A program made the position numbers and the translations under genes. 55,473 nucleotides of DNA, from NCBI RefSeq assembly GCF_016595415.1, contig NZ_JAENIO010000028.1, positions 1 through 55,473 of the forward strand, in the 5' to 3' direction. Below the pieces are notes generated by a model. That model made no database searches, had not been told where the DNA came from, and worked only from the letters and a program-made list of their open reading frames with translations. Positions 27,589-36,017 of the stretch are shown one piece after another (positions within the stretch are counted from its first letter, which is position 1; the number at the start of each line of letters is the position of its first letter). The stretch comes from Roseibacillus ishigakijimensis (GTDB taxonomy: Bacteria; Verrucomicrobiota; Verrucomicrobiia; Verrucomicrobiales; Akkermansiaceae).

Positions 27589-28410
27589 CTAACTGGCCTT
27601 GCGCCGAAGAGTCACCGTTTGCAAGAAGCGGCCCGTGCTGCCGTCGCTGGATTGGAAAAAGCTGTTGTTGCTCTTGAGGATGATAAATTGGGTTTGTTCG
27701 TCGGAGCGGAAGGGGATGAGGTTGTTGCCCTGGGTCTTCCATCCATCGGGGCCTTCGTAGGAGAGCTGATAAGCACAGCGCCCATTGACGGGATTGATGA
27801 TTTTCGACTTGCGGGGCAAGAGGGCTGCTTCCTGATTTCCATTGAAGCGCATCCCGACCCGGAAAGGGGAGAGATTCAACACGCGGACTTTTCCCACCGG
27901 GAGGCTTTCAGGATCATCCTTGATGACATAGGGCTGCAAGAGACCTCCAGCGGCGGGGGCGAGGAGCACTGTGGCCCGCGAGGTGTTTGCAGGCAGCTGC
28001 ACCAGAGCGACCAGAGTGGGTTCTTCCTCCCGGCGGACGAGGAGAGCTTTGACAAGCGGATCGTTACTCTCCGCCAGGGAACGCAGATTTTCCTCTGGAT
28101 TAGTAGAAGAGAGAGGAATGGTGGCGTGTCTGGCATCTTCTTCCGACATCTCGGGAGCCTCATCGGCTCCGGTATCGATCTGGTGAATTTCCAGCAGCTG
28201 ATTGCCGGTATAGCGGACGGGCTCGGAATACTGGAAGGGCTTGGCGGTATGCTTTTGCCCTTTCTCGGGACCACCGAGACTGAGGCCGCGCAGCTCGTTG
28301 CCCCAAGCGACGAGGTCGAGCTGCATACTGACTTGGGGCGCGTCTTGTGCGGAAGCGGTGGCGAAGAGCCCGGCGACGATGAGGAGGAAGGAAGTGAGTT
28401 TAGATTTCAT
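27589..28410 (-). CDS. Exported VccA companion protein (overlaps vccA copy 2)
   Basis: A 273-residue protein with a signal peptide (MKSKLTSFLLIVAGLFATASAQ). I do not recognise a named family. The C-terminal half shares a pattern with the proteins at 14328 and 51001: a VRVLNLSPFRVGMRF strand matching RLINISHRTLTLRW and RFINVAPAPLRIVI, then a short variable strand, a W residue, 'TQFIILKSN', and an ending in LQTVTLRRKAS matching LKLVTLRER. The ATG at 28410 lies inside the end of vccA copy 2 (11-base overlap), so translation of the two is probably coupled. No membrane segment after the leader. A role in VccA assembly or as a surface partner is inferred from the coupling alone. Confidence 0.82.
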   Translation of the reverse strand: MKSKLTSFLLIVAGLFATASAQDAPQVSMQLDLVAWGNELRGLSLGGPEKGQKHTAKPFQYSEPVRYTGNQLLEIHQIDTGADEAPEMSEEDARHATIPLSSTNPEENLRSLAESNDPLVKALLVRREEEPTLVALVQLPANTSRATVLLAPAAGGLLQPYVIKDDPESLPVGKVRVLNLSPFRVGMRFNGNQEAALLPRKSKIINPVNGRCAYQLSYEGPDGWKTQGNNLIPFRSDEQTQFIILKSNNSFFQSSDGSTGRFLQTVTLRRKAS

Positions 28411-31400
28411 TTTCGGAAAGCCAACGGAAGGCAATGACTTGGAAACGCCGTCCAAAACGTTCATTGACGGAGTTCAGTTCGTTATAGGGAGATTCCGGCT
28501 CGTTGGAAGGATCAAGATAATCAACTTGCCGTTGCACGATCGCTTCCGCGTAAGCGGTGGCGAGGATCTTGCCCGCAGCATCGTAGGAGCGGCCGCAGCT
28601 ACGGATGCGGAAGGTATCCGAGCGCACGGTGAGGGAAGGCTCGAGAACCTGCAGCATATCACCTTGCAACATCCAGCCGGGGATGCCGGTGGAGCGGTAG
28701 CCCTGCTCGGGGCGGAACTCGCGGTCGTAGAGCATGTCGCTGTCCGCGAGAATGCTGGCTACGGCACCGTAGTTGTTGTCGGCTGAGGTCACCGCCCAGT
28801 CAGGGTGGCGGCGATTGGCATTGGGCAGCTGGTTGCTGGTATCACCGCCATCGACATCGGCCCGGGGAGCGCGGTTTTTGTGGGCGAGGGTCACACGGTC
28901 CTTCGAGGCGGAGATGTCTTGGAAACCATTGCGGTCGCCATCGATGGAAATGTTGACGCCGCTCTCGTCGAGAGCGCATTGGAGCGCGCCACTGCGGGTC
29001 AATTCAGGCGCTTCTTCAAGAGGAGCCACCGCCCGGTTGACGAAGTGGGAGAGGGAGACAAAGGGGCCCCGTTTGCGCACTTGGCGGGTGATCTCGCGAG
29101 CCAAGGCATCCACTTCCTGCTCATCGAGCTCGCGGTAGCCAGCAAAGGAATCTTCACCACTGCCGGTGGGGGGAGTGATGGGTTGAGCAGTCTGTTCCAA
29201 GCTGCGGGGAAAGGCGGCATTGCCCGACTGCTGACCGGAGGTGGGATGCTGGCGGAAGCGGGTGGAGCCCAGCAGGGCCTTCCAGGCGTCGATGCTGGTG
29301 GAGTTGACGTTAAAGGCTCCCTCCACTTGCAGGGACTTGGCCACTTCCGAGGGCTCGCTGAAGTTGGCGGTTTCCGAACGCTCCGTGAGGACGTAGTTCG
29401 GGTTGCGCGGCTCCCTGCTCTGCAAATCCAGGGTGGAGAAGTAGTAACGGTCGTAGAGCGAGCTGTTCAGAATGTGGGAGATGTCGTAATACTCACGCGG
29501 CATCTGGGTGGCTCCGCTGTGATTATTGCTGCCCATGATTTCATAATCGACGCGGCGCTCATTAACCAGCTCGCGCTGCACGAAGGGGGTCGCATAGGAG
29601 TTCCCCAAGGCGTAGGCCGGCTGGTGTCCAATGGACAGGCGCTCGGCGTCATTGGTCAGGTCGGCGTGCTGGAATTGAGCCAGGGTTGAGAAGCGCTCGG
29701 GCACCGAATAGAGAATGGTGTTTCGGGGGCCTTCCACATTGGAGAATCCCCAAGGAATGGGATTGAAGGCCATATCCTGGGCAAAGGCATCTCCGGTGAA
29801 GCCTCCATCGAAGGCCAACCCCGCCCAACTGTCGACCATCTCCATGAAGAAGGGAGGTGGGTTGTAGCTGGCGATGGGTTTGCTGAAGTTGGTTCCATGG
29901 AGGTTGAAGTCCATGAAGGTGCGCAAAGTCGAGCCGCGCTGGCCCATCTCGTAGTCGCGGGGCATCCGGCCGGCCCGGAGATAATCGATGCCCGGTTGGC
30001 TGAGCTGGAGGGTATGGGAAACCAGCGGGACGGGACCGCCGCTGAATTGGCTGTAGTTACCAAATGTGAATTGGCGGGTTGTTGGCCAGTAATAGCCATT
30101 GTCCAGTTCGAGGCGCTCGACCCGGCGGAGGAACTCTCCGCGGCTGGAACCAGCGAGGCGCATTTCCAACATAACCAAAGTGGTTTGCCAAGATTCTCGG
30201 ACATCAAGTGACTTGGGTAGTTTGGTGCTCACGCCGCTCTCCAATTGCACGCTGTTATTGAAGTCGTTGATATTAGTCGCATCGATGGGCTTGAAGGGGA
30301 TAGTGACCTCGCGCGAGGCCGTGCGGATGGTGCGCACGAGAGGCTCGGCCTGGGTGTAGCCGCGTGCTTCGCCGGGCTCAAGGCGACCGGGCTCAATCGT
30401 GAAAACCGCTTGGTTGAAAACGGCTACTTCCCGTCCTGCCCGGCGAGGAGTCTCATCGGCAGGGAAATAGGCGCAGTTGTTGTTGTTGTATTGCCAAAGG
30501 CGCGCTGGTCTGTTTCCCAGCGGCGTCTGGTTGATGAGTTGGAGCTCCAGGCCGCTCTCCCAGACCAGAGGCACGGAATAAGGATTAGCGAGGGTGACGG
30601 CTAGTTTGCCGGCTGGAATCACCTGGAAGTCCGAATCTGCTGTCACGCGACGACCGTTTGTCTCCATCTTGACTCCCAAAACGAGGCGGATATCAATGAT
30701 AGCGGGAGAGATGCTTGCTTCGTCCACTTCACCCTTCCCGCGCACCTGAAGTCCGTTACTACCAAGGCTTCTGTGCCGTTCGGTGAACTCGAGGAGGTGG
30801 TCCCAAGTGAGATGCTCCAGCCGGGCGAGGGCTGAACTAGCGGTGCCGGGGATGACGCGGCCATCGCGAGTGGGGTAGTTGTCATAGGCTCCGGCGGGGG
30901 GGCCAGAGGAGAGACCTTGCGCGAAGGCTGTGGTCAAGTCGACCTTCAGTCCGCCCTCCAAGGGATTGGTCAGGAGGCCGCGGCTGACGGTGGTGGCGGA
31001 GTGGAAGAGAGAATTGGCCGAGCCAGAGGAGGTGCCACCCGAGGCACCGGGAATCAGTTTCGCCGTCGGGAGAGTGAGGATACGAGTCAAGTCGGTGTTA
31101 CTCCCGCCTCCCGGAGTGGGGTAGCCTTCCATGCCGGTGACTGTTTCCCAGCCCCGTCGTTGGGCGGTGAAGGTATCGTAGTCGATATCCAGTTCGTCTT
31201 CGTTCTGTAGGTTGAGGCGGGATTTGACCCCCTCATCGCCCACCCACCAGGCAAAGGCTCCCTGCGGATTGCCGGTCTCAGGATTGCGGATGGAAACCAA
31301 GGGAGCGGAGACGAGGGAGTCGTCGGAGCCGATTTCGTTGCCGGGGGTATTGTTGCCCACCAGAAGAACGGCCTGGGCGGAGGATTGATTGCCGCCCACT

Positions 31401-31915
31401 TGATAGGCGCTATTGCCTGGGTTGACGTCTCCGCTGCCCAATCCGTCGGCAGGTGAACTCACCAGCCAACGCAAGAGACTGGCGCTGGGGGTTTTTTCAT
31501 AAATTTCCGAGGGGTCGTCATTGTTGGTAAAGACGCCAGTCCAGTGGCGGGTGCCGGGCTGCACGGAGGTCAGGCCTTTTTGGGTGCCGTCGAGCGAGGT
31601 GTTGTTCTCCGGGCCGGAACCAGAGGGCAGGGCGTCACCTTCAGCGGTCCCCGCCATGTCGGCAGTGGCCGTGATGCGCTGGTCGGGTCCGGCATATTTT
31701 TGCAGATTACCAATGGCAATCTGAAGGGCAAGCCGGGCATTGGCCTGGGCTTCTTGGCGGGCTTGGGTGGCTTGCGAACTCCGCAACTGTGTGCTGGAGA
31801 GGGAAAGAAGTCCGACTGCGATGAGAGAAAGCAGAATCATCAAGGTTACGGTGACAACCAATGAGAATCCTGATTTCTTCGAAACGCTTTGCTGGGGTTG
31901 GCAGGGTGGTTTCAT
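28400..31915 (-). CDS. vccA: Verru_Chthon cassette protein A (copy 2)
   Basis: A 1171-residue TIGR02600-type giant pilin-like protein. The leader ends KKSGFSLVVTVTLMILLSLI, followed by QANARLALQIAIGNLQ and GPDQRI. Shared blocks include FAWWVGDEGVKSRLNL, LEGGLKVDLTTAF, a FSTLAQFQHADL block, AYALGNSYATPF, NVNSTSIDAWKALLGS, RGPFVSLSHFVNRAV, and VRSDTFRIRSCGRSYDAAG. It ends FRWLSENEI. The ATG at 31915 has no Shine-Dalgarno site; instead a 20-bp near-palindrome begins four bases upstream. Its stop overlaps the start of its small exported companion. This copy diverges from copies 1 and 3 more than they do from each other by eye. Function of the family is not established; location in the envelope is inferred from the leader. 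Confidence 0.92.
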   Translation of the reverse strand: MKPPCQPQQSVSKKSGFSLVVTVTLMILLSLIAVGLLSLSSTQLRSSQATQARQEAQANARLALQIAIGNLQKYAGPDQRITATADMAGTAEGDALPSGSGPENNTSLDGTQKGLTSVQPGTRHWTGVFTNNDDPSEIYEKTPSASLLRWLVSSPADGLGSGDVNPGNSAYQVGGNQSSAQAVLLVGNNTPGNEIGSDDSLVSAPLVSIRNPETGNPQGAFAWWVGDEGVKSRLNLQNEDELDIDYDTFTAQRRGWETVTGMEGYPTPGGGSNTDLTRILTLPTAKLIPGASGGTSSGSANSLFHSATTVSRGLLTNPLEGGLKVDLTTAFAQGLSSGPPAGAYDNYPTRDGRVIPGTASSALARLEHLTWDHLLEFTERHRSLGSNGLQVRGKGEVDEASISPAIIDIRLVLGVKMETNGRRVTADSDFQVIPAGKLAVTLANPYSVPLVWESGLELQLINQTPLGNRPARLWQYNNNNCAYFPADETPRRAGREVAVFNQAVFTIEPGRLEPGEARGYTQAEPLVRTIRTASREVTIPFKPIDATNINDFNNSVQLESGVSTKLPKSLDVRESWQTTLVMLEMRLAGSSRGEFLRRVERLELDNGYYWPTTRQFTFGNYSQFSGGPVPLVSHTLQLSQPGIDYLRAGRMPRDYEMGQRGSTLRTFMDFNLHGTNFSKPIASYNPPPFFMEMVDSWAGLAFDGGFTGDAFAQDMAFNPIPWGFSNVEGPRNTILYSVPERFSTLAQFQHADLTNDAERLSIGHQPAYALGNSYATPFVQRELVNERRVDYEIMGSNNHSGATQMPREYYDISHILNSSLYDRYYFSTLDLQSREPRNPNYVLTERSETANFSEPSEVAKSLQVEGAFNVNSTSIDAWKALLGSTRFRQHPTSGQQSGNAAFPRSLEQTAQPITPPTGSGEDSFAGYRELDEQEVDALAREITRQVRKRGPFVSLSHFVNRAVAPLEEAPELTRSGALQCALDESGVNISIDGDRNGFQDISASKDRVTLAHKNRAPRADVDGGDTSNQLPNANRRHPDWAVTSADNNYGAVASILADSDMLYDREFRPEQGYRSTGIPGWMLQGDMLQVLEPSLTVRSDTFRIRSCGRSYDAAGKILATAYAEAIVQRQVDYLDPSNEPESPYNELNSVNERFGRRFQVIAFRWLSENEI

Positions 31916-32307: not shown

Positions 32308-32952
32308 ATGATGAAAGTGAAAAAGATAAGCGCCTCCTTGGGCGGTGGTTTGATGGCTCTGCTGCTCGGCGCGGCAGCGAGTGGACAAGAGCAGGAAGAG
32401 GGGTTCCTCTCTTTAATGGACGGACAAAGCTTCCATGGCTGGAAGAAGTCGACGGAAAATGAGGAGACTTGGCAAATCGAGGACGGGGCTTTTGTTGCGG
32501 CCGGGCCACGCAGTCACCTTTTCTATGAGGGTGATGGGGAGCCCTTTAAGGATTTCCACTTGAAGGTGGAGGTGATGACGGAGGAGAAAGCCAATGGTGG
32601 CATCTACTTCCACACCGAGTATCAGGCCGAGGGCTGGCCCCGGGTCGGGTTCGAGAACCAGGTCAACGTGAGCCATGGCGACTGGAAGAAGACGGGTAGT
32701 CTCTACGACGTCGTCAATGTGGGGCAGGTAACGGTGGAGGACGGGCAGTGGTGGCTGCAGGAAATCATCGTGCAAGGGCGCACCGTCACGATCAAAATCG
32801 ATGGCGAGGTGCTCTATCAATACACCGAGCCAGAAGGGGCGCAGGCCGGGGAATCCTTCACCCGGAAGCTTGCGGAGGGCACTTTCGCCTTGCAAGCGCA
32901 CGATCCGGGCAGTGTCATTCGCTACCGCAATATCCGCGTCAAGCGCCTCTGA
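32308..32952 (+). CDS. Exported DUF1080 (3-keto-disaccharide hydrolase-like) protein
   Basis: A 214-residue exported protein of the DUF1080 family, a concanavalin/LamG-like beta sandwich; some members act on 3-keto-glycosides. A signal peptide ends near ASGQ (residue 27). The family pattern is plain: FLSLMDGQSFHGWKKS, ETWQIEDGAFVA, FKDFHLKVEVMTEEKANGGIYF, GFENQVNVSHGD, and the ending SVIRYRNIRVKRL. It starts at the first of two adjacent ATG codons, with a GGAAA element close upstream of the second. A strong terminator follows its stop. Neighbours give no sugar-pathway context, so a carbohydrate substrate is inferred from the family only. Confidence 0.9.
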   Translation: MMKVKKISASLGGGLMALLLGAAASGQEQEEGFLSLMDGQSFHGWKKSTENEETWQIEDGAFVAAGPRSHLFYEGDGEPFKDFHLKVEVMTEEKANGGIYFHTEYQAEGWPRVGFENQVNVSHGDWKKTGSLYDVVNVGQVTVEDGQWWLQEIIVQGRTVTIKIDGEVLYQYTEPEGAQAGESFTRKLAEGTFALQAHDPGSVIRYRNIRVKRL

Positions 32953-32986
32953 GCGAGGGTCTTGATTGACTCGCTGGATGTTTTTT

Positions 32987-33020
32987 CAGGCGATTCTTCC
33001 TGTGAAGAATCGCCTGTTTT
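32987..33020 (+). terminator. Intrinsic terminator after the DUF1080 gene
   Basis: CAGGCGATTCTT (32987-32998) pairs perfectly with AAGAATCGCCTG (33005-33016), a 12-bp stem with a 6-base loop, followed by TTTT (33017-33020). It abuts the stop of the convergent peroxiredoxin gene. Confidence 0.85.
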
Positions 33021-33551
33021 CTATGGGTGCGATTGTCCGGCGCGGTGGCGGGCAACGGCTTGCAGAGCGTGCTCGATGTGTTTGGAAGGATTGACCTGGT
33101 GGTCGACCCAGATGAGCTTTTGATTATGGAAGAGGTAGCTGTAGCGGGCGGGGCGGTTGTTGGGATGGGGCACTTCGAAGGCATCGCACAGGGAGCCATC
33201 CACATCGCAGAGGAGGGGGAAGGTGAGGCCGTATTTCTTGGCAAAGGCCAATTGGGCCGGAATGGGATCCATGGACACTCCCAGAGCGCGCACGCGAGCG
33301 GCGGACAGTTTCTGCGCTGAAGACTCCAGCGCGTTACACTGCTTGATTCATCCCGGGGTGTCGGCTTCCGGGTAGAAAAAGACGAGAAGGTAATCCTCGG
33401 CCCCATAGCTGCGCAGCGAGACGAGGCGGTTGTATTGATCCCGCTCGTAGAGATCGGGTAAACGGCTCTGCTGGTCCCTAGGGACGAATTTGCCGGTATT
33501 CATGGCACAGGCGCTCAAAAAGAGTGCCAGCGCGAGAAGGAAAACTTTCAT
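33021..33551 (-). CDS. Candidate selenoprotein: lipoprotein peroxiredoxin (AhpC/TSA, BCP-like) with in-frame UGA
   Basis: Read as one gene, this is a 176-residue thioredoxin-fold peroxiredoxin. A lipoprotein leader (MKVFLLALALFLSAC) predicts membrane anchoring at Cys15. The catalytic motif reads FFYPEADTPG, then TGA (33348-33350, codon 68), then IKQCNALE. Peroxiredoxins have TPGC(T) here, so UGA sits exactly at the peroxidatic cysteine. The frame is continuous on both sides; downstream GVSMDPIPAQLAFAKKYGL and FPLLCDVDGSLCDAF are normal family blocks. A SECIS-like hairpin follows the UGA. A cysteine lies four residues after the UGA. GGGGAGG lies 22 bp before the ATG, with a small hairpin (33553-33570) between. 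Otherwise it is a peroxiredoxin pseudogene or a sequencing error. No sel genes are in the window. Confidence 0.8.
33306..33341 (-). promoter_or_regulatory. SECIS-like RNA hairpin downstream of the in-frame UGA
   Basis: On the mRNA, GCGCUG-GAGUCUU-CAGCGC (33332 down to 33314) is a perfect 6-bp stem with a 7-base loop, starting 15 bases after the UGA. The apical loop begins 21 bases after it. CAGU and ACUG outside form a lower stem across an internal loop. The loop contains GUCU, as in the E. coli fdhF element. Spacing fits bacterial SECIS elements recognised by SelB. Confidence 0.7.
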
Positions 33552-33649
33552 GTCCCGACTAGTAGCGGGATTCCTCCCCTTTGACAACTCGAAGTGCGGG
33601 GCTTTCCGCCGCAGGAGAATGCGCGGCAAGGGAGCGCTAAAAAATGTTG

Positions 33650-33666
33650 TTGCAAACGAGTCTCAA
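33650..33666. promoter_or_regulatory. Putative Fur-type iron box upstream of feoA
   Basis: TTGCAAACGAGTCTCAA resembles the Fur-box form TTGCAAATNATTCTCAA, 27-43 bp upstream of the feoA start. The position and the iron-uptake genes that follow make iron control plausible. It also lies upstream of the divergent peroxiredoxin gene. Not tested against a matrix. Confidence 0.45.
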
Positions 33667-33692
33667 TAAGGCCAAGCTGCTCCTCACATCCA

Positions 33693-33947
33693 ATGATGAA
33701 AGTTGCCTCCCCGCAGATTTGTGACACCTCGACTGTTTCGCTGAAGCAAGCGGCGGCGGGTTGTGATCTGCAAGTTGAACTGGTGGAGGGAGCGGACTGC
33801 AATCAGTTGAGGGACTTGGGATTTTGCGAACAGATGCGTTTGCGGAAGATCAGCAATGGACGCACTCTGGTGTGTTCGATTTGTGGCTCCCGGCTCGCTA
33901 TTTCCAGTCATCTCGCGGAACAAATTCAAGTGCGCCAACTTTCCTAA
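33693..33947 (+). CDS. feoA: FeoA family ferrous iron transport protein
   Basis: An 84-residue cytoplasmic SH3-like protein that partners FeoB in ferrous iron uptake. The family pattern is visible: TVSLKQAAAGCDLQVELVEG, then LRDLGFCEQMRLRKIS, and the end SRLAISSHLAEQIQVRQL. It is unusually rich in cysteine (CDTS, GCD, DCN, GFCEQ, VCSICG); VCSIC resembles a metal-binding pair. I used the ATG at 33693 of two adjacent starts; the open frame extends upstream but without family similarity. No Shine-Dalgarno site seen. The feoB start follows its stop by 12 bp, so they form an operon, probably iron-controlled by the upstream box. Confidence 0.9.
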   Translation: MMKVASPQICDTSTVSLKQAAAGCDLQVELVEGADCNQLRDLGFCEQMRLRKISNGRTLVCSICGSRLAISSHLAEQIQVRQLS

Positions 33948-33959
33948 CAGATTTTGTCA

Positions 33960-36017
33960 ATGGAAAGCGAACAGGTGCCAAAAGTTGTCTTGGTGGGTCA
34001 CCCCAATGTCGGTAAGTCCACTTTATTCAATGCTCTAACAGGCGGAAAAGCGAAGGTGGGAAATTACCCTGGAGTGACCGTTTCGCACAAATCCGGCCAC
34101 TTTCACACCCCCCATGGTCGCAAGGTGGAGCTGGTGGACTTGCCGGGCTGTCATTCCCTCATGGCCCGGGCGCAAGACGAGGAGGTCACTCGCGACGCTC
34201 TCTTGGGTTCCCTGCCGGGCGCGGGCGATATCGACTTGGCGGTGGTAGTAGTGGATGCTTCCGCGCTCGAGCGTCACTTGCCGCTGGCCCTGCAAGTGGT
34301 GGAGCTAGGATTGCCCGTTCTGGTGGTCTTGAATAAGATCGATGTGGCGAAACAAAATGGCACCCGGATCAATCGCCAGATTTTGGCTGAAGAGTTGGGA
34401 TTGCCGGTGGTCGCGCTGCAGGCTGACAACGGCGAAGGGATTCTCAATCTCAAGCAAGCGCTGCGTTTTCCCCTCCCTTTGCCTCCCCATCCGGCTTGGC
34501 AGGATTCGGCAACGCTGCAAAAGGCCAAAGCCTCTCTCGCCAAGAAATTGGGCGAGCTTTCGGTTCCCTACCCGGAGCGTCAGGCTTGGATGTTGTTGGC
34601 CGATCGCGATTACCGTCGCAATCCGGAAAGCCGGCTTTCAACTGAAGCCTTGAGCGAAGCCCAGGCGGTAGCCGACCAATTGGCCAGTGAGGGCGAGGCT
34701 CCTGAAGAGCAATTGGGTGCTTCCCGGCGTGAACGCGTGCGCGACTTGGCAGAACTCGTCATGACCAGCCAGCAAGGCGATGGGCCGGACGGGGCCACTT
34801 TCTCTGACAAGCTCGATAGTGAGCTGCTGCATCCAGTGCGGGGCTGGTTCTACTTCGCGGCTATCTTTTTCCTCATTTTTTGGACCCTTTTCACGTGGGC
34901 GGGGATCCCCATGGATTTGATTGAGGGGGCCTTCGAAGCGCTTGGGGGAGCGGTGGGGGGACTGTTGCCAGAGGGCCTTTTTTCCGACTTGATGGTCGAT
35001 GGGATCATTGCCGGGATCGGGGGCGTGGTGGTCTTTTTGCCCCAGATTCTCTTTCTTTTCTTCTTCCTTGGGATTCTCGAGTCTACGGGCTACATGGCAC
35101 GGGCTGCCTTTCTCATGGATGGGGTAATGAGCAAGGTGGGCTTGAGCGGTCGCAGCTTTCTTCCCCTTCTCAGCGGCTACGCTTGTGCCATCCCGGGGGT
35201 GATGGCCACCCGGTCGGTGCCGAGTGCCCGGGAGCGCCTGTTGACGATTTTGATTTTGCCTTGGATGTCTTGTAGTGCCCGCCTGCCGGTCTATCTCCTG
35301 CTCATTCCTCTCTTGGTCTCGGGGGCATTGGCTCAGGGATTGGTTCTCTTCGGGCTTTATTTTCTCGGCACGGGCACCGCTTTTCTTGCCGCCTTGCTGC
35401 TGCGCGGTCGGGTGGGCTTGGAGAAGGGGTATCAGCCCAGCTTTCTCATGGAAATGCCCCGGTATCGCGCACCCGATTGGAGCTTCATTTTCCGTCATCT
35501 CTTCGATCGAGCGGGAGCATTTTTGAAGAAGGCGGGAACGGTGATTCTCGCTCTATCCATCATCCTCTGGGCTTTGGCAACCTTTCCCAAGGCTCCTTCC
35601 GGAGAAGAGCAGGACCAGTTCAGCTACTCGGCGATGGGGCGTATTGGGCAAGCGATCGAGCCCGTGGTCGCCCCTTTGGGCTGGGATCACCGCCTGGGCA
35701 CCGCCATGCTTGCTTCCTTTGCGGCGCGGGAGGTGTTCAACTCCCAGGTGGCCATCTCCTACGCCATTGAAGAGGGGGACGATGAGGGGGAAACCCAAGG
35801 GGCCATTCGCGAGGAGTTCAGCAAGTCCTACGGGATGGCCACGGTGCTCTCTTTGTTGGTCTTCTATGTCTTCGCCCTGCAATGCCTGCCCACGACGGCG
35901 GTGGTCAGCCGAGAGGCCAATTCTTGGAAAGTGGCCGTCGGACAGCTCGCGGGTATGTCTCTCTTCGCCTATTTCGCGGCTCTGGTGACTTACCAGGCGC
36001 TCAATGCTTTCCTCTGA
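33960..36017 (+). CDS. feoB: Ferrous iron transporter FeoB
   Basis: A 685-residue inner-membrane Fe(II) transporter. The N-terminal GTPase domain shows GHPNVGKST (G1), DLPG (G3) and NKID (G4), followed by a helical spacer. From about residue 290 a polytopic region has the paired Gate domains, with ESTGYMARAAFLMDGVMSKVGLSG and SGYACAIPGVMATR, then SCSARLPVYLLLIPLL, and a FeoB C-terminal part. I chose the ATG at 33960 (MESEQVPK) over a TTG two codons upstream. It follows feoA by 12 bp and is followed at 22 bp by a small FeoB-associated protein gene. Complete, with no sign of damage. Confidence 0.97.
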   Translation: MESEQVPKVVLVGHPNVGKSTLFNALTGGKAKVGNYPGVTVSHKSGHFHTPHGRKVELVDLPGCHSLMARAQDEEVTRDALLGSLPGAGDIDLAVVVVDASALERHLPLALQVVELGLPVLVVLNKIDVAKQNGTRINRQILAEELGLPVVALQADNGEGILNLKQALRFPLPLPPHPAWQDSATLQKAKASLAKKLGELSVPYPERQAWMLLADRDYRRNPESRLSTEALSEAQAVADQLASEGEAPEEQLGASRRERVRDLAELVMTSQQGDGPDGATFSDKLDSELLHPVRGWFYFAAIFFLIFWTLFTWAGIPMDLIEGAFEALGGAVGGLLPEGLFSDLMVDGIIAGIGGVVVFLPQILFLFFFLGILESTGYMARAAFLMDGVMSKVGLSGRSFLPLLSGYACAIPGVMATRSVPSARERLLTILILPWMSCSARLPVYLLLIPLLVSGALAQGLVLFGLYFLGTGTAFLAALLLRGRVGLEKGYQPSFLMEMPRYRAPDWSFIFRHLFDRAGAFLKKAGTVILALSIILWALATFPKAPSGEEQDQFSYSAMGRIGQAIEPVVAPLGWDHRLGTAMLASFAAREVFNSQVAISYAIEEGDDEGETQGAIREEFSKSYGMATVLSLLVFYVFALQCLPTTAVVSREANSWKVAVGQLAGMSLFAYFAALVTYQALNAFL

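Follow-up and report, generated by a model that had tools for sequence, protein, structure and literature searches.

Peroxiredoxins with selenocysteine (Sec) at the peroxidatic position are a known family of bacterial enzymes, and members with a TxxU motif, placed in COG1225 (Bcp), are listed in the available portions of PMC1794560, PMC1088965, PMC9312934 and PMC13188914. A Sec peroxiredoxin of Eubacterium acidaminophilum is cited in the reference lists of PMC13188914 and PMC9312934. In the main text of these four papers, the word "lipoprotein" is used nowhere, and "Verrucomicrobi" is absent from the main text of PMC1794560 and of the two reviews of prokaryotic selenoproteins (PMC9312934, PMC13188914), and also from PMC5029168. 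Among the titles listed by searches of the openly available literature, none dealt with a bacterial lipoprotein selenoperoxidase. Exported selenoproteins are known, such as the Tat-exported formate dehydrogenase and the periplasmic NiFeSe hydrogenase, and export after UGA decoding is therefore not new.

In this study, we have explored a gene of Roseibacillus ishigakijimensis that had been singled out, from its sequence alone, as a likely selenoprotein with UGA in place of the catalytic cysteine of a peroxiredoxin lipoprotein. It resembles the described bacterial Sec peroxiredoxins (Prx, TxxU), as far as the available portions of those listings describe them, in its AhpC/TSA domain and in the location of Sec at the peroxidatic TxxU position, which bears out the statement that Sec occurs at this same site in other peroxiredoxins. 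It differs from them in that the protein is, judging by its sequence, an exported lipoprotein that has no cysteine five residues after the Sec (+5), has an invariant one at +54 and belongs to a separate clade. The original prediction also regarded an exported lipoprotein form as unusual; this stands insofar as a clade of lipoprotein Sec peroxiredoxins with a rearranged second cysteine appears undescribed, and falls insofar as exported selenoproteins as such are familiar. We hold the selenoprotein reading with high confidence. For the whole explanation, in which UGA-68 would encode Sec and the product would be an exported, predicted lipidated peroxidase whose Sec is resolved by Cys122 or by an external thiol, we estimate a probability of about 95%.

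A peroxiredoxin frame with a single TGA

The window, by which we mean the whole stretch of 55,473 nt that was analyzed (contig NZ_JAENIO010000028.1), carries on its minus strand a frame from 33551 to 33021 that is interrupted solely by a TGA at codon 68 (33350-33348). The frame reads MKVFLLALALFLSAC...FFYPEADTPG-U-IKQCNALE... and ends at TAG; the single TGA and the residues next to it are as had been described. The two segments originally proposed, 33551-33351 and 33347-33021, are indeed stop-free halves of one frame, but they are not ORFs once a start codon is required, in which case the ORFs listed are 33629-33348 (TTG) and 33293-33021 (GTG). The joined protein of 176 residues (33021..33551, minus strand) matches AhpC/TSA (Pfam PF00578, residues 30-145, E 3.3e-22, 79.2 bits with a cut-off of 26), and its homologues, tree and predicted fold place it as a PrxQ/BCP-type peroxiredoxin lipoprotein with predicted Sec at residue 68. 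The window has many frames that a TGA divides: 53 such junctions, this one included, have at least 66 open codons before the TGA and at least 100 after it; the signal for the gene is therefore in homology and comparison, not in the open frames.

A search of NCBIfam with the protein returned no model at its cut-off, the PrxQ/BCP models NF006960 (63.8 of 140 bits) and NF053650 (51.9 of 260) both falling short. PrxU (NF040737), which we take to be the E. acidaminophilum Sec peroxiredoxin, is absent from the NCBIfam matches of the R. ishigakijimensis protein, and the homologous row of G134 (L024) reaches 28.1 of the 270 bits of that model. Given this lack of a model at cut-off, genes of this kind may well be divided in two by routine annotation.

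Read by eye, residues 1-14 (MKVFLLALALFLSA; 33510..33551, minus strand) form a signal peptide that leads into the lipobox LSAC, whose cysteine, residue 15 (33507..33509, minus strand), is the predicted lipidation site. A lipobox-like cysteine can be seen by eye in 24/24 rows of the clade described below, and 11 of the 23 rows checked match [LVI][ASTVI][GAS]C, which we take to be the strict lipobox motif. These features suggest that the product is exported and lipidated at Cys15, and its lipid probably anchors it to a membrane.

Conservation of the UGA codon

Homologues came from searches at the level of the order, the phylum and the family (189, 387 and 260 genomes), of which a subset of the matches was fetched. 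The codon at the peroxidatic position could be read in 155 fetched matches and is TGA in 61, TGC in 89 and TGT in 5. One set of 13 matches had a single inner TGA each; it sits at codon 68 in six of them (R. ishigakijimensis included), and the other seven have TGC at that codon, their inner TGA probably being the terminal stop. After removal of repeats, 56 Sec rows and 75 Cys rows were left, and these were divided into 24 lipoprotein Sec rows, 32 other Sec rows (L194 among them) and the 75 Cys rows.

The lipoprotein rows, whose identity to the R. ishigakijimensis protein goes down to 35%, make up one clade (support 100/99) and come from 23 genomes, 22 of the R. ishigakijimensis family and one (G009) of another family, with two near-copy rows supplied by G682. 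All 24 have UGA at the peroxidatic position, which in R. ishigakijimensis is codon 68 (33348..33350, minus strand), in TPG-U, and the same column holds cysteine in 75/75 distinct Cys rows, so the TGA does occupy the place of the cysteine in the TPGC motif, as originally claimed. TGA is one base away from a cysteine codon and the assembly is a draft of 192 contigs, and one might think of a pseudogene or a sequencing error, in which a Cys codon became TGA or was misread as such. Yet the UGA recurs in every row of the clade, across 23 genomes, which makes a base-call error very unlikely; the part downstream of the UGA is under purifying selection, and the hairpin and its codon choice are conserved (see below). 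Taken with these observations, decay or error is hardly credible.

The selection estimates come from the closest pair, R. ishigakijimensis and G091. Before the UGA, dN is 0.117 and dS 1.13 (dN/dS about 0.10), and after it dN is 0.129 and dS 1.09 (dN/dS about 0.12), with synonymous sites near saturation. Purifying selection, as estimated from these two sequences, is similar in both halves. This also bears on the idea that termination is the normal event, with a 67-residue lipopeptide as the main product and read-through either minor or a form of selenium-dependent regulation. In the Sec systems that are known, release factor 2 competes for the UGA, which speaks for this idea; nevertheless, the downstream half is constrained like the upstream half in this pair, and the predicted fold covers both, so that we find it very improbable. 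Relatives with multiple disabling mutations, which the original prediction had named as evidence that would count against it, did not turn up, apart from a copy in G700 with a TAG upstream of the UGA. That genome is part of a sub-branch (G701, G711, G697 and G700; L159-L162) in which the UGA is kept and the TPG motif is lost, TFW standing ahead of the UGA in place of TPG and the G700 copy having TF followed by the TAG.

Selenocysteine machinery

The genome of R. ishigakijimensis (4.14 Mb in 192 contigs, 95% complete) encodes a tRNA-Sec with anticodon TCA (66.4 bits, over the Rfam cut-off), together with SelB (328 bits), SelA (446 bits) and SelD (L018, 366 bits), all over their cut-offs. The original prediction had staked itself on this point beforehand, the absence of all sel genes being named as its refutation. 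The selA gene (G000:C150; L010, L017) adjoins a frame that resembles an elongation factor and to which the SelB model gives 183 bits, under the cut-off. SelD has itself one inner TGA, in CAGU-ASK, followed by a hairpin with a GGUCU loop, and is therefore a second likely selenoprotein of this genome; the available portion of PMC1794560 lists SelD among the selenoprotein families.

A full-length enzyme needs some form of read-through, and this could in principle insert another amino acid, for example Trp, by way of a suppressor or an altered code. The full Sec machinery in the genome, the cysteine at the aligned position of 75/75 Cys rows and the G091 orthologue, which ends on UGA as its terminal stop, all argue against it, and we consider such decoding extremely unlikely.

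The machinery also follows the gene across the family. Of the 22 family carriers of the lipoprotein UGA gene, SelA was identified in 21, versus 49 of the 238 remaining family genomes (Fisher p 1.5e-12, for genomes that are related and not independent). SelA was not found in a single family carrier, G720 (72% complete), where SelB and tRNA-Sec are nevertheless present, as they are in G009, the carrier from outside the family. G671, from the same genus as R. ishigakijimensis, has SelA and tRNA-Sec yet gives no match to the Sec peroxiredoxin at the cut-off.

A SECIS-like hairpin downstream of the UGA

Starting 15 bases past the UGA, and spanning bases 16-34 after it, is a hairpin with a perfect 6-bp stem (GCGCUG/CAGCGC) and the loop GAGUCUU (33314..33332, minus strand); with the lower stem, as folded from the single strand, it covers 33306..33341 (minus strand). 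This agrees with the earlier description of a perfect stem with GUCU in its loop, the lower stem being a feature of the predicted fold. That this element is a SECIS had been proposed from its layout, and here folding energy and comparison have to be separated. Energy alone is weak evidence: for R. ishigakijimensis, an equally good fold arises in 4.5% of 400 synonymous resamplings (p 0.045), and p values of 0.05 or below are reached in 2/24 lipoprotein rows, 0/32 other Sec rows and 5/75 Cys rows.

Comparison is more telling. Between R. ishigakijimensis and G091, one pair of the stem has changed on both sides, from C-G to U-A. Covariation was measured in a chosen set of 21 rows (9 of the 24 lipoprotein and 12 of the 32 other Sec rows), a choice that favours the structure; of the remaining lipoprotein rows, one near-copy was left out and 14 of a bulged type had their own test. 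In this set, 96% of the cells pair (72% when shuffled), two-sided changes occur in 31 cells (11.2 when shuffled) and covariation is 0.673 (0.242 when shuffled), each value being as high in 0/500 shuffles. The number of pairs with a two-sided change (5/6) is not unusual, since 68/500 shuffles attain it. Of the 13 distinct rows among the 14 of the bulged type, 8 have G-C at the outer pair 18-41 and 5 have A-U, and both sides differ at this pair between the close relatives G134 and G166. Covariation as high was again seen in 0/500 shuffles, and the count of pairs with a two-sided change was attained by 472/500. The outer stem of this type has two unpaired cells at pair 22-37, and with partners slid by +2 or +3 the covariation score is 0.128, compared with 0.147 unslid.

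The Sec rows also differ from the Cys rows in what they can form and in how they spell it. The closing three pairs of the hairpin form in 21/24 lipoprotein and 31/32 other Sec rows versus 6/75 Cys rows, and the full stem of six in 4/24, 15/32 and 0/75, respectively. The loop has GGUCU, presumably the core of the loop in E. coli fdhF, in 15/24 lipoprotein rows. Where alanine occurs at the hairpin, its codon is GCA in 19/22 lipoprotein and 21/21 other Sec rows and in 0/33 Cys rows; where arginine occurs, CGG is used in 17/17, 29/30 and 16/68.

A covariance model trained without the rows of R. ishigakijimensis and G091 ranks the hairpin site first in the window, with an E of only 0.05 and a score to which the UGA and coding conservation add. 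The same model matched the site in 1 (L107) of 26 Sec-PrxQ loci of other phyla and did not find the element of SelD. Rfam, searched over 32900-33700, gave nothing above the gathering score and two chance-level matches only. By covariation and codon choice, the putative SECIS hairpin is conserved.

Fold, cysteines and a possible catalytic cycle

The AlphaFold model, built from the R. ishigakijimensis protein together with the 26 Sec-PrxQs from other phyla, has a mean pLDDT of 87.1, with low confidence for residues 1-30 and lower confidence at the C-terminal end. BCP and PrxQ proteins top both lists of the nearest solved structures; Xanthomonas campestris PrxQ (5iiz), Mycobacterium tuberculosis BcpB (5epf) and Sulfolobus Bcp1 (3drn) align with Z of 22.0-23.3 and rmsd of 1.5-1.9 over 143-145 residues, at 25-27% identity, and differ in that the R. 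ishigakijimensis protein is without the PrxQ resolving positions considered. In the model, residue 68 would lie in the first turn of a helix (66-77) and residue 122 in a short helix (120-124).

The usual resolving cysteine at +5 is present in 74/75 Cys rows and 31/32 other Sec rows, in contrast to 0/24 lipoprotein rows, and R. ishigakijimensis has Asn73 there. At the alternative resolving position, +36, a role that we take from the C48/C84 pair of PrxQ (named in the titles of 5io2 and 5iph), it has Ala104, and 2/24 rows of the clade have cysteine. The cysteines that do follow the Sec in R. ishigakijimensis are Cys72 (+4; 33336..33338, minus strand), found in only 2/24 rows of the clade, Cys115 (+47; 33207..33209, minus strand), found in 13/24, and Cys122 (+54; 33186..33188, minus strand). 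The last is invariant in the clade (24/24) and occurs in 0/32 other Sec rows and 0/75 Cys rows (0/107 together). We read the +54 cysteine as a candidate for a relocated resolving thiol.

Our proposal is that SelB and Sec-tRNA(UCA) would decode UGA-68 as selenocysteine with the hairpin as a guide, and that the signal peptide would export the product, predicted to be lipidated at Cys15, as a peroxidase of PrxQ fold facing the cell envelope. Sec68 would attack peroxide and become a selenenic acid, which may be resolved by the invariant Cys122, in place of the lost +5 cysteine, or by an external thiol of the periplasm that reacts with it directly. For this last step, the main rival of Cys122 is a one-Sec peroxidase in which Cys122 is structural and the external thiol reduces the selenenic acid. 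The vacancy of both +5 and +36 in R. ishigakijimensis is consistent with such a cycle, and the near folds include M. tuberculosis AhpE, whose entry is titled as a 1-Cys peroxiredoxin. Sec-PrxQs from other phyla point the same way, as 18 of the 26 have no +5 cysteine (8 have it) and 12 lack both it and the +54 cysteine; the latter is present in 7, of which 6 are among the 18. Against it is the distribution of Cys122, universal in the lipoprotein rows and absent from the 107 others. A one-Sec cycle is thus a real possibility, though with less than an even chance.

Relatives and origin of the lipoprotein clade

Most of the Cys relatives, too, look exported: in 65 of the 75 Cys rows (order and wider), a crude score marks a stretch at the N-terminus as strongly hydrophobic, from which we suppose that export probably came first. 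The same family has a second Sec clade, with UGA in 31/32 rows, mostly as TGG-U. By eye its members have a signal peptide, and their hairpin loop is in the same register as in the lipoprotein clade, from which they differ, again by eye, in having no lipobox. Within this second clade, L193 (from G705, which still has a lipoprotein UGA gene) is a Cys row and an apparent Sec-to-Cys reversion. The Sec-PrxQs of other phyla were recovered as 26 loci (within L074-L113) among 44 scan stretches, in Acidobacteriota, Myxococcota, Rokuibacteriota, Fidelibacterota and Gemmatimonadota; their number is a lower bound, as the scan pattern covered only some F-P codon choices, and among the 44 stretches named genomes are undersampled and no record has Verrucomicrobia in its title. 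These proteins share TPG-U and the PrxQ family with the lipoprotein clade, and differ in having no signal peptide by eye and in forming a clade of their own (100/100).

Two trees were compared. The smaller one used 12 of the 32 other Sec rows and 30 of the 75 Cys rows, drawn at random, left out L162 and contained no Cys rows related to the 26 cytosolic Sec-PrxQs. It groups 23/23 of the lipoprotein rows used (100/99) and joins them to the second Sec clade at 91/88, below the starred support level; the joined clades sit inside the Cys PrxQs of the phylum, apart from the cytosolic Sec-PrxQs. The larger tree (24 lipoprotein, 32 other Sec and 75 Cys rows) did not recover the union of the two Sec clades as resolved; in it, the Sec row L181 sits among the Cys rows at the end of a long branch, and at least three Sec/Cys changes are forced. 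The trees suggest one change from Cys to Sec in this group and one change back, independent of other phyla. In a fuller account, a PrxQ family that was already exported would have exchanged Cys for Sec, independently of the cytosolic Sec-PrxQs of other phyla, and given rise to a lineage of exported selenoperoxidases with a lipid anchor; the resolving thiol would then have moved from +5 to +54, and a Sec68-Cys122 selenylsulfide would turn over in the envelope. We advance this account tentatively, as something slightly less than an even bet.

Genomic neighbourhood

Upstream of the gene, and divergent from it, are feoA and feoB for ferrous iron uptake (33594-36014, plus strand), and downstream is a convergent gene for a 3-keto-disaccharide hydrolase. 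A link between the feo genes and the Sec peroxiredoxin through Fenton chemistry is tempting, but none of the 16 other loci that were examined has a counterpart of feoB. The convergent genes are separated by a terminator-like hairpin of 13 pairs (32987-33016) that has a T run after it on the plus strand alone; with 2 sites of this sort found and 1.3 expected, their number is close to chance. When up to 6 kb on each side was compared between the window and the 16 loci, no neighbour proved common to every genus. In seven loci of genus g8 (L212-L216, L218 and L225), the lipoprotein gene is accompanied by the same two genes, one of which is also next to it in G091 (L210). Further along the window, an ORF of 1171 residues (28400-31915, minus strand) has a pilin-like N-terminus by eye and no Pfam match; it has a counterpart beside the G091 orthologue.

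Conclusion

Our results support the likely selenoprotein through the Sec machinery, the UGA in 24/24 rows, the hairpin and dN/dS. They also go beyond what was first proposed, as sequence comparison adds Cys relatives that mostly look exported, the loss of the +5 cysteine, the invariance of that at +54 and a second Sec clade of exported appearance. If the reading is true, a conserved Sec peroxidase of the envelope would mean that selenium is put to use on the side of the cell that faces oxidants. With a Sec clade that keeps +5 beside it, the lipoprotein clade, which has lost the +5 cysteine and fixed the one at +54, represents a natural experiment on how PrxQ enzymes recycle their selenenic acid.
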